64,000 nucleotides of DNA from Shouchella clausii (GTDB lineage: Bacteria > Bacillota > Bacilli > Bacillales > Bacillaceae_D): positions 3,162,001-3,226,000 of the forward strand of contig NZ_CP019985.1 in assembly GCF_002250115.1 (NCBI RefSeq), given 5' to 3'. A program made the position numbers and the translations under genes. The notes beneath the pieces were generated by a model. That model was not told where the DNA came from, ran no database searches, and was given only the letters and a program-made list of their open reading frames with translations. Each line of letters starts with the position of its first letter. Within the stretch, counting starts at the first letter, position 1. Shown in pieces: positions 3,893 through 44,328 of this stretch.

Positions 3893-6193
3893 TTGCAATA
3901 CGAAAAAGAACGCGCCGCTTATATACATGCATTTATAAGGACAAAACAAGCAATGCTCCGTGAACAACTGGAAGGCGTAGCGGGCGATGAAATGGAATTG
4001 AAGGAAACGTTTTGGGATCATGTCACCGTCAACTTTTCCAATAGCCACGAGATTCAAGAGACGATCTCCAGCATTAAACAACAAGCAGAACTTTTAAATG
4101 AACGGGAACGTAGTGGCGCACTAATTAAAAAACAAATGCGGACGTTGCGGCGGTTAGCTGATTCTCCCTACTTTGGCCGAATTGATTTAAAGATCGAAGG
4201 AGAAAATCAGGCTGAACCGATTTACATTGGCATCGCCTCGCTAATGGATGAAAACGATAGCGATTTTCTCATTTATGACTGGCGTGCCCCGATTTCTAGC
4301 GTCTATTATGATTCAGAAATTGGCCCTGTTACCTATACGGCGCCAGCTGGTACAGTCAAAGGGGTGTTAGAGAACAAGCGACAATATGTGTTTCGCCGCG
4401 GCGAGTTAAAAGCCATGTTCGATACATCGCTTGCGATTGGTGACGAACGTTTAAAGGAATCTCTTGGCGAAGGCGCTTCCCGTTATATGAAAACGATTGT
4501 TTCCACGATTCAAAAAGAACAAAACCAAGCCATACGTGATGAAAAAAGCCGGTATTTGGTTATACAAGGAGTGGCAGGCAGCGGAAAAACGTCTGTGGCA
4601 ATGCAGCGTGCTGCTTATTTGCTTTTCCGCCATCGTTCTCACATTGAAGCAAACCAACTTGTTTTGTTTTCGCCGAATGAGTTGTTTTCCAGTTATGTGT
4701 CGACTGTTCTTCCTGAGTTAGGCGAAGAAAATATGAAGCAATTGACGTTTCGTGGTTACCTTTATAAGCGACTTGGGCGTGTGTATGAAGTAGAAGACGG
4801 ATTTGCCCAGCTTGAATATATACTAGGCGCAGATAAAGGCGAGTTGTACCGAACGCGAATGAGAAGCATTGCTGTAAAATCAGGGCGTGCATTTAAAGAA
4901 AAACTGGATGCTTTTATTGAAAAGCTGAAAGAAGGGGGACTATTTTTTAAAGACGTCCGTTTTCGCAAAAAGACACTGATACCAAAAGAAGATATTGAAA
5001 CGTATTTCTATTGCTTGGATCATGGCATTCCTTTGCAAAATCGGCTTAGGCTCACTGGGGAATGGTTGTTAAAAGAGATCGCCAAACAAGAAGGGAAAGA
5101 ACGTTCTGAAGCATGGGTCGAAAAAGCCCGTGAGCTGTTAGACAATGAAACACTGCTGCGAACGCACTGGGAAGTAGAAAAGGCAACTGCGAACGAAGAG
5201 GAGTTCGGTGCCCAAGAAAGACAAGAACAACTTATTGCTAAACAACTGGTGCGCGAGGCGTTTGAGCCATTGAAAAAGCGGATAAAAGCGCTCGCTTTTA
5301 TTGATAGTGAAAAGCTATACGAACAATTTTTATTTGATGATTGCCATCGGGATACGGACGGATTTGCTGCCGTTGCCTTATGGTCTAGCAGTGAAATTAG
5401 TAAAAAGCGGATGCCTTATGAAGATGCAACGCCGTTTCTCTATTTACAGGACCGTGTTAAAGGGTTACAAGTAGACCGGTCCATTAAACACGTCTTCATT
5501 GATGAAGCACAGGATTACACTCATTTTCAGCTCGTCTATATGCAAATGCTCTACCCAGCCGCCCATTTTACAATTGTCGGCGACGTCAGCCAGACGCTTT
5601 ATATCCACGGGCCAAACCAAACAGGCTTAATCGGTGGCGACGAGGCTGATGTCAAATACATGGCGTTCTATAAAAGCTACCGGTCTACTGAAGCCATTAT
5701 TCGTTTTGCTCGGGAGATGCTGCCGAATCCAGAGGAGATTATCCCATTTGAACGGCCTGGTGATGTGCCTGTTTTGGTGAAGGGAACAAGCCGCCAAGCT
5801 TTAATAAAGCCTGTTAAAGAATGGGTCGAACAAATGGGAGAGAGAGGCTACAGGACGGTTGCCGTAATCGTCAAAACGGCGAAAGAAGCAAACGATGTCC
5901 ATGCCCAGCTGAGCGAATGGCTCGATATTCAGCTTGTGGCCAAAGACCATCATGAATACAAAGAAGGAGCAGTCGTTTTGCCTGTTTACTTGGCGAAAGG
6001 CATTGAATTTGATGCAGTCGGCGTATTTGATGCGTCTGCAAGCCATTATGCTTCTTCCCAAGAACGGTACCACCTTTACACAGCATGCACGCGGGCGATG
6101 GACCACTTAACCGTTTTTGCCGCAGGCGAATGGTCGCCATGGCTGAAGCCGATCCCGTCCCACCTTTATGAAGAAAAACAAGCGCTCTCCTAA
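3893..6193 (+). CDS. helD: HelD-type UvrD-like helicase, RNA polymerase recycling factor
   Basis: About 766 residues from the favoured TTG start at 3893 (an in-frame TTG at 3863 is possible; GAAAGGA upstream of 3893 is the better RBS). Order: N-terminal coiled-coil arm that in HelD enters the RNA polymerase secondary channel; Walker A GVAGSGKTS near residue 223; an inserted variable region; Walker B FIDEAQDYT; and a C-terminal RecA-like half with GDVSQTLY and YTACTRAMD. B. subtilis HelD (774 residues) releases stalled RNA polymerase from DNA. It is convergent with the transaminase gene and its stop codon lies inside a duplicated terminator hairpin. Confidence 0.88.
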   Translation: MQYEKERAAYIHAFIRTKQAMLREQLEGVAGDEMELKETFWDHVTVNFSNSHEIQETISSIKQQAELLNERERSGALIKKQMRTLRRLADSPYFGRIDLKIEGENQAEPIYIGIASLMDENDSDFLIYDWRAPISSVYYDSEIGPVTYTAPAGTVKGVLENKRQYVFRRGELKAMFDTSLAIGDERLKESLGEGASRYMKTIVSTIQKEQNQAIRDEKSRYLVIQGVAGSGKTSVAMQRAAYLLFRHRSHIEANQLVLFSPNELFSSYVSTVLPELGEENMKQLTFRGYLYKRLGRVYEVEDGFAQLEYILGADKGELYRTRMRSIAVKSGRAFKEKLDAFIEKLKEGGLFFKDVRFRKKTLIPKEDIETYFYCLDHGIPLQNRLRLTGEWLLKEIAKQEGKERSEAWVEKARELLDNETLLRTHWEVEKATANEEEFGAQERQEQLIAKQLVREAFEPLKKRIKALAFIDSEKLYEQFLFDDCHRDTDGFAAVALWSSSEISKKRMPYEDATPFLYLQDRVKGLQVDRSIKHVFIDEAQDYTHFQLVYMQMLYPAAHFTIVGDVSQTLYIHGPNQTGLIGGDEADVKYMAFYKSYRSTEAIIRFAREMLPNPEEIIPFERPGDVPVLVKGTSRQALIKPVKEWVEQMGERGYRTVAVIVKTAKEANDVHAQLSEWLDIQLVAKDHHEYKEGAVVLPVYLAKGIEFDAVGVFDASASHYASSQERYHLYTACTRAMDHLTVFAAGEWSPWLKPIPSHLYEEKQALS

Positions 6194-6210
6194 ACGGAAG
6201 CGCTTGTTTC
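6178..6210 (+). terminator. helD terminator hairpin (copy 1 of a duplicated hairpin)
   Basis: The stem ACAAGCGCT / AGCGCTTGT around CTCCTAAACGGA is followed by a short T run and contains the helD TAA stop. Nearly the same sequence recurs at 6364-6394 on the other side of an inverted-repeat element. Confidence 0.75.
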
Positions 6211-6364
6211 AGCCTGTAGACAAACGCTCGCATACTTCGTCATTTGTCTCGGTCATATGTTCATGAACACTTGTTCTATTCACATCTTCCCTCGCCTGCA
6301 CTCCTCGTCTGACAAGCGTTTTCTATCAGTCTGAATGATTTTGTCGACAAAGTCGACAAAATCA
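6210..6364 (-). repeat. Dispersed intergenic inverted-repeat element, copy A
   Basis: On the minus strand this reads: a perfect 13-bp hairpin TGATTTTGTCGAC/GTCGACAAAATCA (6336-6364), then CAGACTGATAGAAAACGC..., then GAGGAGTGCAGGCGAGGG, ending ...GAGCGTTTGTCTACAGGCTG at 6210. The ends form an imperfect inverted repeat (CAGACTG.TAGA.AAACGC). The copy between 43636 and 43826 is about 160 bp and clearly homologous; shorter relatives lie near 14273, 22829 and 25951. It has no credible coding capacity and resembles a MITE or REP-type element. Confidence 0.8.
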
Positions 6365-6394
6365 AGCGCCCTCCTAAACGGGGGCGCTTGTTTC
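6362..6394. terminator. Transaminase-side terminator hairpin (copy 2 of the duplicated hairpin)
   Basis: The stem CAAGCGCCC / GGGCGCTTG surrounds TCCTAAAC. The minus-strand TAG of the transaminase gene lies inside it. It differs from the copy at 6180-6210 at only three positions, and the changes keep the stem paired. Confidence 0.75.
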
Positions 6395-14174: not shown

Positions 14175-14272
14175 AATTTTTGAGTGGTTTTGTCCGTTAC
14201 ACTAGAAAACCGAAAGGCAATAAAAATGTTCTTTTTGCTGGGTCTGGCTTTCGGTCCGTAAATTACTGCTAG

Positions 14273-14345
14273 GAACCACTCGTTCTATTCGCATCTTCCC
14301 TCACCTACACTCCTCTTCTGCCAAGCGTTTTCTATCCGTCCGATT
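14273..14345 (-). repeat. Remnant of the dispersed inverted-repeat element, copy B
   Basis: The minus strand reads GGATAGAAAACGCTTGGCAG, then AGAGGAGTGTAGGTGAGGGA and AGATGCGAATAGAACG, matching the left half of copies A and E with scattered changes. A decayed form of the GTCGAC hairpin (GTCAACAAAAAT) precedes it. The right half is missing. It lies in the 365-bp gap between the YfzA-like gene and yqhV, which otherwise holds only hairpins. Confidence 0.65.
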
Positions 14346-22828: not shown

Positions 22829-22886
22829 CAGGCTGATAGAAAACGCTTGTTAACATCAACGTATGCGAGCGTTTGTCTACAGTCTG
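22829..22886 (+). repeat. Dispersed inverted-repeat element, internally deleted copy C
   Basis: CAGGCTGATAGAAAACGCTTG at the left and TATGCGAGCGTTTGTCTACA then GTCTG at the right, with only about 15 bases between. It is a 58-bp derivative that keeps both ends of copy E and abuts the yqhY terminator on its right. Confidence 0.75.
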
Positions 22887-25886: not shown

Positions 25887-25950
25887 ACACCAAACAGGAA
25901 AAGAGAAAGTTGGAAGGAAGAAAGAACGGCTTATAAAACGAGGCAACCGA

Positions 25951-25980
25951 TGACGTATGGGAGCGTTTGCCCGCAGTCTG
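25951..25980 (+). repeat. Remnant of the dispersed inverted-repeat element, copy D (right end)
   Basis: GACGTATGGGAGCGTTTGCC then CGCAGTCTG matches the right end of copies C and E with two or three changes. As in those copies its last base abuts a terminator hairpin. Confidence 0.65.
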
Positions 25981-26008
25981 AACCAACCTGGAGGCGGTTG
26001 GTTTTTTT
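25981..26008 (+). terminator. ispA operon terminator
   Basis: AACCAACC / GGTTGGTT with a seven-base loop and a T run. Confidence 0.85.
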
Positions 26009-43101: not shown

Positions 43102-43530
43102 ATGCAGCAGTTTAATTTTTTTATGAATGACGTCGTCCAAGAGGCGCGCAATGATATGGTTCACGCTGGCTATACGGAGTTGAAAACCGCTGAAGAAGTC
43201 GACGAGGTATTATCACAAAAAGGAACAACGCTCGTGATGGTCAATTCCGTATGCGGGTGCGCAGGTGGGATTGCCCGCCCAGCGGCAGCTTATATGAAAA
43301 ATTACGAAACACAACCTGATCGTTTTGTAACTGTATTTGCTGGCCAAGATAAAGAAGCGACGGCACGGGCGCGTGAATTCTTTACAGGATATGGACCATC
43401 TTCGCCTTCATTTGCATTGCTAAAAGACGGCCAAATCCAAACAATGGTTGAGCGCCATGAAATTGAAGGACATGAGCCAATTGAAGTTGTGCAGAAGCTA
43501 GAACAGGCAGTCGACACGTACTGCAAATAA
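43102..43530 (+). CDS. brxB: Bacilliredoxin BrxB (YqiW)
   Basis: 142 residues, DUF1094/BrxA-B family with the CGC active site (C51-G-C53) in [15 protein letters not shown]. Bacilliredoxins remove bacillithiol from S-bacillithiolated proteins in the cytoplasm. RBS AAGGAGGGCG. Following the bkd genes is the B. subtilis order (yqiW). Confidence 0.93.
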
Positions 43531-43609
43531 GCCATTTTGGCATAGTCAGACGTCGAGCAAAGACGCTTATACAGAAGTCATAAGCGAGTACGCTGAATTG
43601 GTGTGCATA

Positions 43610-43852
43610 AGGCCTTTCCTTACAAGGGAAGGCCTGAGGTTGTCGACAAAGTCGATAACCGCCCTCAGACTGATAGAAAACGCTTGTCAGACGAGGAGTG
43701 CAGCCGAGGGAAGATGCGAATAGAACGTGGGTTCATGAGCAGCGATTTTCTTGCGCATGAAACGACAGTTTCAAAGCATATGAGTGAGGCAAACGACGAA
43801 GTATGCGAGCGTTTGTCTACAGTCTGAGGCCTTTCCTTACAAGGGAAGGCCT
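43610..43852 (+). repeat. Full-length dispersed inverted-repeat element, copy E, bracketed by an exact 26-bp hairpin duplication
   Basis: Structure left to right: hairpin AGGCCTTTCCT/AGGGAAGGCCT (43610-43635); a second hairpin GGTTGTCGAC/GTCGATAACC; then a 161-bp body 43666-43826 starting CAGACTGATAGAAAACGC and ending GCGTTTGTCTACAGTCTG (inverted ends); then an exact second copy of the first hairpin (43827-43852) followed by a T tract. Only the right hairpin looks like a functional terminator. A 74-codon frame across it (43603-43827) is judged non-coding. The element fills most of the 430-bp gap after brxB. Confidence 0.85.
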
Positions 43853-43908
43853 TTATTTTTGCTGTTGGTCAACGCTTCAAATGACGCTTGGCAAACATGA
43901 ACTTAAGA

Positions 43909-43937
43909 TGGCAAGCAAGCAGTGCATATGCTATAAT
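43909..43937 (+). promoter_or_regulatory. Sigma-A promoter of the hypothetical gene at 43963
   Basis: TGGCAA, 17 bases, then TATAAT with an upstream TG (TGCTATAAT, extended -10). Confidence 0.65.
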
Positions 43938-43962
43938 GGCAAAGTGTAAAGGGGTGTTTCTA

Positions 43963-44328
43963 GTGCAAGCACAGTATGAACGAATCCAACAATATTTAAA
44001 TATGGATGAGGAAATTTCATTTAAAGAATTTCAAGACTTCTACAAAGAAGTGATCAATGAATTAAGCAAAATCCACCAAGGAATGGACGAGGCAACATTG
44101 TGGAAAGCGCTATTTGTCGTTGAAAATATTATTTCCAATGCTGACGGGCGCGCCAAAGAGACAAAGGGAACAGAAGCAAAAAAATACAGCAAAATGTCCC
44201 AGCGCTTGCAGCTCTATGCAAAAAATTTCGGCGTGCGACTAGGCGAAGCAGGCTATACAGAAGAAGATATTAATGAACGCTTCCAGCAAATGTTTGCCGA
44301 AGGAGAAGAAGCGGCCAAGTCGTCATAA
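43963..44328 (+). CDS. Hypothetical helical protein between brxB and the tRNA-Arg gene
   Basis: 121 residues from GTG 43963 (AAAGGGG nine bases upstream). Soluble, mostly helical by eye, with charged runs NADGRAKETKGTEAKKYSKM and no membrane span or known motif. It has a good promoter of its own. I do not recognise it; the last bacterial gene before the prophage. Confidence 0.7.
   Translation: MQAQYERIQQYLNMDEEISFKEFQDFYKEVINELSKIHQGMDEATLWKALFVVENIISNADGRAKETKGTEAKKYSKMSQRLQLYAKNFGVRLGEAGYTEEDINERFQQMFAEGEEAAKSS

Follow-up and report, generated by a model that had tools for sequence, protein, structure and literature searches.

Short IS1182-type elements of Shouchella clausii lie at terminator hairpins and are flanked by two copies of the hairpin

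The DNA analysed here (the window) is a stretch of 64,000 nucleotides from Shouchella clausii, part of a 4.52-Mb single-contig genome labelled G000 below. Downstream of an open reading frame it contains a short element, copy E, that lies between two copies of a terminator-like hairpin (Table 1). The parts that the initial annotation had described, namely a 161-bp body with the inverted ends CAGACTG and CAGTCTG (43666-43826), a GTCGAC hairpin read from the sequence to the left of this body, and an exact 26-bp hairpin, AGGCCTTTCCTTACAAGGGAAGGCCT, on both sides, were all found in their places. The true unit is not the 161-bp body but an element of 191 bp, since it is GAGGTTGTCGAC, rather than the inner CAGACTG, that directly borders the duplication. 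Most complete copies of the family are 154 bp in length, and copy E represents a 191-bp long form. Only the right hairpin of copy E is followed by a T-rich tail. A known RNA family was rejected for copy E, as no match to an Rfam family was obtained in 43400-44000 at E values up to 1; the strong fold of 43610-43865 (z = -9.48) is expected from the inverted ends and the hairpins, and we do not read it as a sign of an RNA function.

Table 1. Copy E, its parts and flanks, and the related copies in the window
Feature	Position	Strand	Basis
Stop codon of the open frame upstream of copy E	43528..43530	+	79 bp before the left hairpin
Left duplicated terminator hairpin (target-site duplication), without T-tract	43610..43635	+	exact repeat in the window sequence; single at the empty site of G004, G009 and G011
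Copy E, complete non-autonomous element, 191 bp, long form	43636..43826	+	blastn and patterns; absent here in 3 sister genomes
Outer left end GAGGTTGTCGACAAAGTCGATAAC... with hairpin 43639-43659	43636..43665	+	resembles the resident IS left end CAGCCTGTCGACAAAGTC, by eye
Inner inverted repeat CAGACTGATAGAAAACG (taken as left end in the initial annotation)	43666..43682	+	pattern search of the genome: 83 sites with at most 2 mismatches; reversed control 0
Right end GCGTTTGTCTACAGTCTG (18 nt)	43809..43826	+	pattern search of the genome: 70 sites with at most 1 mismatch; reversed control 0; resident IS ends in TTTTGTCTACGGTCTG
Right hairpin copy; with the T-rich stretch 3' of it, the form of an intact intrinsic terminator	43827..43852	+	sequence
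Copy A, complete, limits approximate	~6210-6363	-	hairpins on both sides (~6176-6209, ~6364-6393), diverged, still paired
Copy B, truncated left half, remnant without right end	14260..14343	-	window comparison
Copy C, internally deleted, then terminator hairpin	22829..22886	+	window comparison
Copy D, right part, then AACCAACCTGGAGGCGGTTGGTTTTTTT	25940..25981	+	window comparison

Related copies or remnants had been reported near 6210, 14273, 22829 and 25951, and they correspond to copies A, B, C and D. A terminator-like hairpin was seen at the right ends of copies A, C, D and E, as had been claimed for these four; the hairpin of copy D was missed by our hairpin script because its loop is 9 nt long. 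The site of copy A is also filled in a genome of the same genus (G009). The differences between the two hairpins of copy A (window 6176-6393) lie on both arms and, as judged by eye, preserve pairing.

The element is not confined to the window. At least 47 matches were found in a blast search of its own genome (40 of 155 candidates scored), and a pattern search with the right end TTTGTCNACANTCTG gave 40 sites, with none for the reversed control. The 18-nt right end was found in 9 of the 60 genomes searched, its own included. Within one genus the counts were 70 in G000, 67 in G004, 72 in G011, 44 in G009 and 8 in G006; outside the genus it was found in one genome of another genus of the family (2 sites) and in three genomes of other families of the order (7-11 sites). 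With the whole element as query, matching pieces numbered at least 50 in G004, at least 51 in G009 and at least 49 in G011, with 40 candidates scored in each. The family is short (mostly 154 or 191 bp), repeated, and has inverted ends and a target duplication, and it is a MITE family of the IS1182 type; the 32 copies with a duplication measure about 89-191 bp and are thus too short for a transposase gene. Two side observations concern the arrangement of the genome. At G000:C1:1195842-1196086 (L046) two copies of the MITE form a tandem pair, in which the first copy is followed by the second copy and not by a terminator. In addition, the sites G000:C1:3620 and 4501855 have the same sequence and flanks and are 4,498,235 bp apart, and a second pair of left ends has equal spacing, which makes it probable from the sequence that the two ends of the contig overlap by some 19 kb.

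The initial annotation had proposed that the element targets terminators, a proposal against which copies lying elsewhere would count, and the genome-wide survey bore it out. The 70 pattern sites (18 nt, at most one mismatch) were reduced to 68 by leaving out a site that is duplicated where the contig ends overlap and one further site. A strong hairpin was located at +0 to +2 of the right end in 58 of these 68 cases, and in 4 of the 10 misses the hairpin at +0 is short or eroded. A looser set of 75 right ends was drawn from the fetched loci (at most five mismatches in 22 nt, with eroded and some doubtful ends included and with IS left ends and the duplicate left out), and a hairpin scoring at least 18 was present at +0 to +2 in 59 of them, starting at +0 in 48, at +1 in 10 and at +2 in 1. 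Adjacency by chance was ruled out for the 75-end set by three controls: 50 dinucleotide shuffles gave a mean of 0.56 and a maximum of 2, five shifted offsets gave 3/75, 0/75, 0/74, 0/73 and 0/65, and a strong hairpin was present at 206 of 20,000 random window positions. In 47 of the 59, at least four of the 8 nt that follow the hairpin are T. The orientation of the element is biased, in that T residues after the right hairpin outnumber A residues before the left one in 20 of 32 complete copies (the reverse in 8, equal in 4). Furthermore, the stop codon of a flanking open frame adjoins 24 of these 32 copies (18 upstream, 14 convergent downstream, 8 both), in a survey whose frame finder took the wrong frame for L085 and short frames for L128 and L131. 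Judged from these features, the targets have the form of intrinsic terminators, i.e., a hairpin followed by a T-rich tract behind a gene, and dozens of small elements in this genome sit exactly at such hairpins. The IS1182 family is listed among those over-represented in gaps between convergent genes in a 2022 survey (PMC9208149), which fits terminators as targets. The frequent stop codons might also be expected if insertion were random and only harmless insertions behind genes survived, thereby accumulating at terminators as safe sites. This explanation is very unlikely, because selection alone could hardly place the element end at +0 to +2 of a stem in 58 of 68 cases or center a duplication on the dyad of the hairpin in 29 of 32.

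That duplication, which had been suggested from copy E to be a target-site duplication equal in length to the hairpin, was found in many copies of the family. The pattern of the outer left end identified 36 copies, and four without a duplication (2435611, 2868330, 3156121 and 3820861) were dropped. In the 32 copies with an intact left end that were retained, the hairpin to the right of the element recurs on its left. The sequence of the hairpin varies from site to site, the duplication is 18-30 bp long (most are 22-27 bp), it is centered on the dyad in 29 of the 32 copies, and its length is correlated with that of the independently found palindrome (Spearman 0.59, p=4e-4). The first base of the duplication is A in 26 of 32 copies and the last base is T in 28 of 32. 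When the dyad is set at the center, unbroken pairing continues for 1-2 bp past the duplication in 15 of 32 copies, and in 3 of 32 it stops 1 bp inside it; the palindrome edge is thus not always the duplication edge, and besides the foot an approximate spacing of 9-15 bp from the dyad may play a part. This leads to the main rival explanation, in which a symmetric transposase dimer would be positioned on the dyad and cut at a fixed distance of about 12 bp to each side, the hairpin being only a binding site. Such a long duplication of fixed length would agree with the centering in 29 of 32 copies, with the predominance of 22-27 bp and with the pairing that continues beyond the duplication in 15 of 32. 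It is nevertheless improbable, since the lengths range from 18 to 30 bp here and from 20 to 32 bp in relatives, following the palindrome (rho 0.59). Differences between the two hairpin copies were found at 7 of 125 loop sites and 13 of 520 stem sites (p = 0.08, not significant), in a comparison in which the hairpin assigned to 507567 was incorrect and that assigned to 603753 incomplete.

Whether the second hairpin arose with the insertion could be judged from related genomes. For 31 copies, G009 was searched for the downstream flank, and copy E was treated separately; its site is empty in G004, G009 and G011, and one hairpin is present there. In a first batch of 18 flanks, 17 were found, of which 13 were empty and 4 filled. 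A second batch of 13 MITE flanks gave 11 credible orthologs, 7 empty and 4 filled, while one flank had no match and one had only a short match of 74%. The site of 4425473 was counted as filled, since the letters show an eroded right end that the script did not see. In total, orthologs were obtained in G009 for 29 of the 32 MITE sites, and all 21 that are empty have a single hairpin, as have the empty G009 sites of four insertion sequences (IS) resident in G000 (4 of 4). Because the hairpin is single at every empty site, a pre-existing pair of hairpins, the finding that would have spoken most directly against the initial annotation, is ruled out. In G009, too, the element is flanked by two hairpins at 7 of the 8 filled sites, and at the eighth (L219) the left end was not found. 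The same data bear on the idea that the hairpins belong to the element as a carried terminator and not to the target. All 32 complete copies counted do have a hairpin at both ends, as such an element would; this idea has virtually no probability left, because the hairpin sequence varies by site and the 21 single hairpins at empty sites refute it. Deletion of the stem-loop, as described for IS1272, was not encountered: a hairpin stands on both sides of 32 MITE and 4 IS copies, and the empty sites have one. A separate observation concerns the orientation of the hairpins. At 4 of 19 compared sites, which were chosen by hand, the G000 hairpin fits that of G009 better when inverted (the 2465541 region (L086), 4000506 (L085), 530788 (L032) and 2639278 (L031), compared with L230, L229, L162 and L156). 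At 2639278, where the two species share the element, the loop is inverted in each of the two hairpin copies of G009, which, from the sequence, suggests loop inversion or independent insertions.

A full-length relative bearing a transposase, which had been proposed as something to look for, is present in the genome in five closely related copies (L082, L083, L085, L086 and L087). Its transposase matches NF033551 (IS1182) with 483 bits against a cut-off of 270 and contains the Pfam domains DDE_Tnp_1, DDE_Tnp_1_6 and DUF772; 8 of 10 matches to NF033551 in the genome are above the cut-off. Four of the five copies have an exact duplication of a hairpin, 21-28 bp in length, and L087 has none. The left end of the IS begins with CAGCCTGTCGACAAAGTC and its right end is TTTTGTCTACGGTCTG or a one-base variant. 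When compared by eye with the MITE, TGTCGACAAAGTC is identical at the left ends but only 15 of 20 positions agree over the outer end, and at the right ends 14 of the last 15 bases are identical. This similarity makes the resident IS1182-family IS the likely autonomous partner of the MITE, and its transposase would be the one that moves the MITE. For the other IS1182 types of the genome (L200-L203), no long repeat was seen and the ends were not found. The earlier statement that no described Bacillaceae family is known with these features needs correction, since IS1182 insertion sequences have similar ends and behavior, and hairpin targeting with deletion has been published for IS1272. A search of the open-licence literature found neither a description of this MITE family nor a report that duplication of the whole hairpin is a general rule. 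Apart from this, the transposase frame has no stop inside the IS in L082, L083, L086, L087, L211 and L212, where it ends 5-124 bp beyond in target DNA, and the frame of L085 likewise runs past the IS end, while the stop lies inside the IS in L127, L205, L206, L214, L215 and L216. The left end of the resident IS also has a terminator-like hairpin of its own, CAGCCTGTCGAC...GTCGACAGGCTTTTTT (L083:1117-1168), and a second hairpin lies just within the right end (L083:2604-2642).

The relationship to an IS also bears on insertion of a retro-element type. Terminator stems are also occupied by group IIC introns, which in this respect resemble the MITE; they insert 3' of the stem, without a duplication. 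A mechanism of this kind is scarcely conceivable here, as the element ends resemble those of an IS with a DDE transposase and the same duplications, a length of 191 bp leaves no room for a reverse transcriptase gene, and 43400-44000 had no Rfam match at E values up to 1.

Duplication of the hairpin is also found in IS1182 relatives of other bacteria, where 16 of 26 examined loci (Bacillota, Rhizobium and Providencia) have a repeat of the whole hairpin, with duplications of 20 to 32 bp. A scan of the genome_contigs collection gave 20 loci, and 13 were examined for flanking repeats. An exact hairpin repeat was present in 9 of the 13, namely in Secundilactobacillus kimchicus (53% identity), in Fictibacillus and at 7 loci of a single Halalkalibacter urbisdiaboli strain, and 4 of the 13 had no repeat; at L139 the hairpin measures 26 bp, of which 17 bp are repeated exactly. 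A search of plasmids gave 349 records with a match, from which 13 places were fetched, and 7 of these have an exact hairpin repeat of 20-30 bp (Sutcliffiella, Peribacillus, ISEfa7 of E. faecium, E. faecalis, two Rhizobium and Providencia). Four others (L208, L209, L210 and L213) have intact but unlike hairpins at the two IS ends, perhaps due to recombination between IS copies; at L207 only the right end was found, and at L217 no end was found.

We consider it very probable that the MITE uses the machinery of the IS1182 family, that the terminator hairpin is selected by its shape, that the element ends are joined at the feet of the palindrome and that the whole stem-loop is duplicated. A miniature, non-autonomous element would be mobilised by the transposition machinery of an IS1182-family IS, whose transposase would recognise the hairpin of an intrinsic terminator through its shape. 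The hairpin was presumably extruded, as a cruciform or in single-stranded DNA, when it was attacked, and cutting would have occurred at its feet. The two ends of the element would then be joined to the two feet of the palindrome, one per strand, with each 3' end of the element joining the 5' foot of the hairpin on its own strand. With joints at the two feet, the stagger would be equal to the length of the hairpin, and gap repair would copy the whole stem-loop. Joining at the 5' feet predicts duplications that are centered on the dyad and variable in length, as was observed; the A and T at the feet of the duplication are an additional observation beyond the prediction of this model. Since one hairpin copy remains before the T-tract, the terminator can remain functional and damage to the host gene may be avoided, and we infer that termination continues after insertion. 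The insertion would thereby regenerate its own safe site.

These results suggest that DNA shape, rather than sequence, can guide a transposase both in the choice of its target and in setting the target's size, and the secondary structure of the target seems to determine how long the duplication is. Most transposases generate a target duplication of fixed length, and the duplications of the IS1182 family are listed as variable, 0-60 bp, which sizing by the hairpin could explain. The results also point to a way in which an element can spread through a genome and leave transcription units intact, by landing on a terminator that is then rebuilt, and they open to direct test whether the target is exposed by cruciform extrusion, by transcription or by replication. 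On balance we lean, by a narrow margin, toward whole-hairpin duplication as the ancestral reaction of the IS1182 family across phyla, with the extruded hairpin as both target and ruler and with cuts at the 5' feet, and toward the deletion of the IS1272 type, at the 3' feet, as derived from it. If so, the MITE family would provide an extensive natural archive of this reaction, in which insertion copies the terminator and the stop signal of the host is kept.

Information on IS1182 elements is described as scarce in a 2025 paper (PMC12056078), with transposition occurring with or without target duplication, and targeting of palindromes by some members was noted by Siguier and colleagues without detailed data, according to Wan 2017 (PMC5678879). 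The closest known systems are IS1272 and TnSha1 of staphylococci, which have an IS1182-family transposase and choose the hairpin structure without sequence preference; for TnSha1, targets A-E were identified as terminators by RNA-seq (Furi 2016, PMC4923244). As in the resident IS copies, the transposase of IS1272 has no stop codon within the IS (Furi 2016, PMC4923244). In contrast to the Shouchella elements, which duplicate the whole stem-loop, IS1272 is described as deleting or replacing it, with no duplication (Furi 2016, PMC4923244; Wan 2017, PMC5678879). Duplication of the whole stem-loop was drawn in the model of Wan 2017 (PMC5678879) as a possible outcome only ('pathway b', 5' foot), with no example in the text that presents it, and the 25 pairs of empty and filled sites obtained here (21 for the MITE and 4 for the IS) provide evidence for this pathway. 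ISEfa7 (IS1182-like, named from the record annotation) is similar to the MITE in its ends, CAGACTGTAGACAAA...TTTGTCTACAGTCTG, and in the 23-bp hairpin duplicated on both sides, but it is autonomous, with a transposase about 59% identical; a literature search that was not aimed at ISEfa7 found no open-licence account of its target duplication. Bacterial MITEs as treated in a 2024 review (PMC10969869), in whose main text the term IS1182 does not occur, are likewise short, present in many copies, flanked by a target duplication and provided with ends common to a resident IS, whereas the elements described here have inserted at a terminator hairpin, and it is this hairpin that is duplicated. Finally, the SPRITE repeats of Streptococcus pneumoniae (PMC10383233, PMC10969869) are also small intergenic repeats linked to terminator-like sequences, but, going by their name and description, the terminator-like sequence lies within the repeat, whereas in the Shouchella elements it is part of the target.
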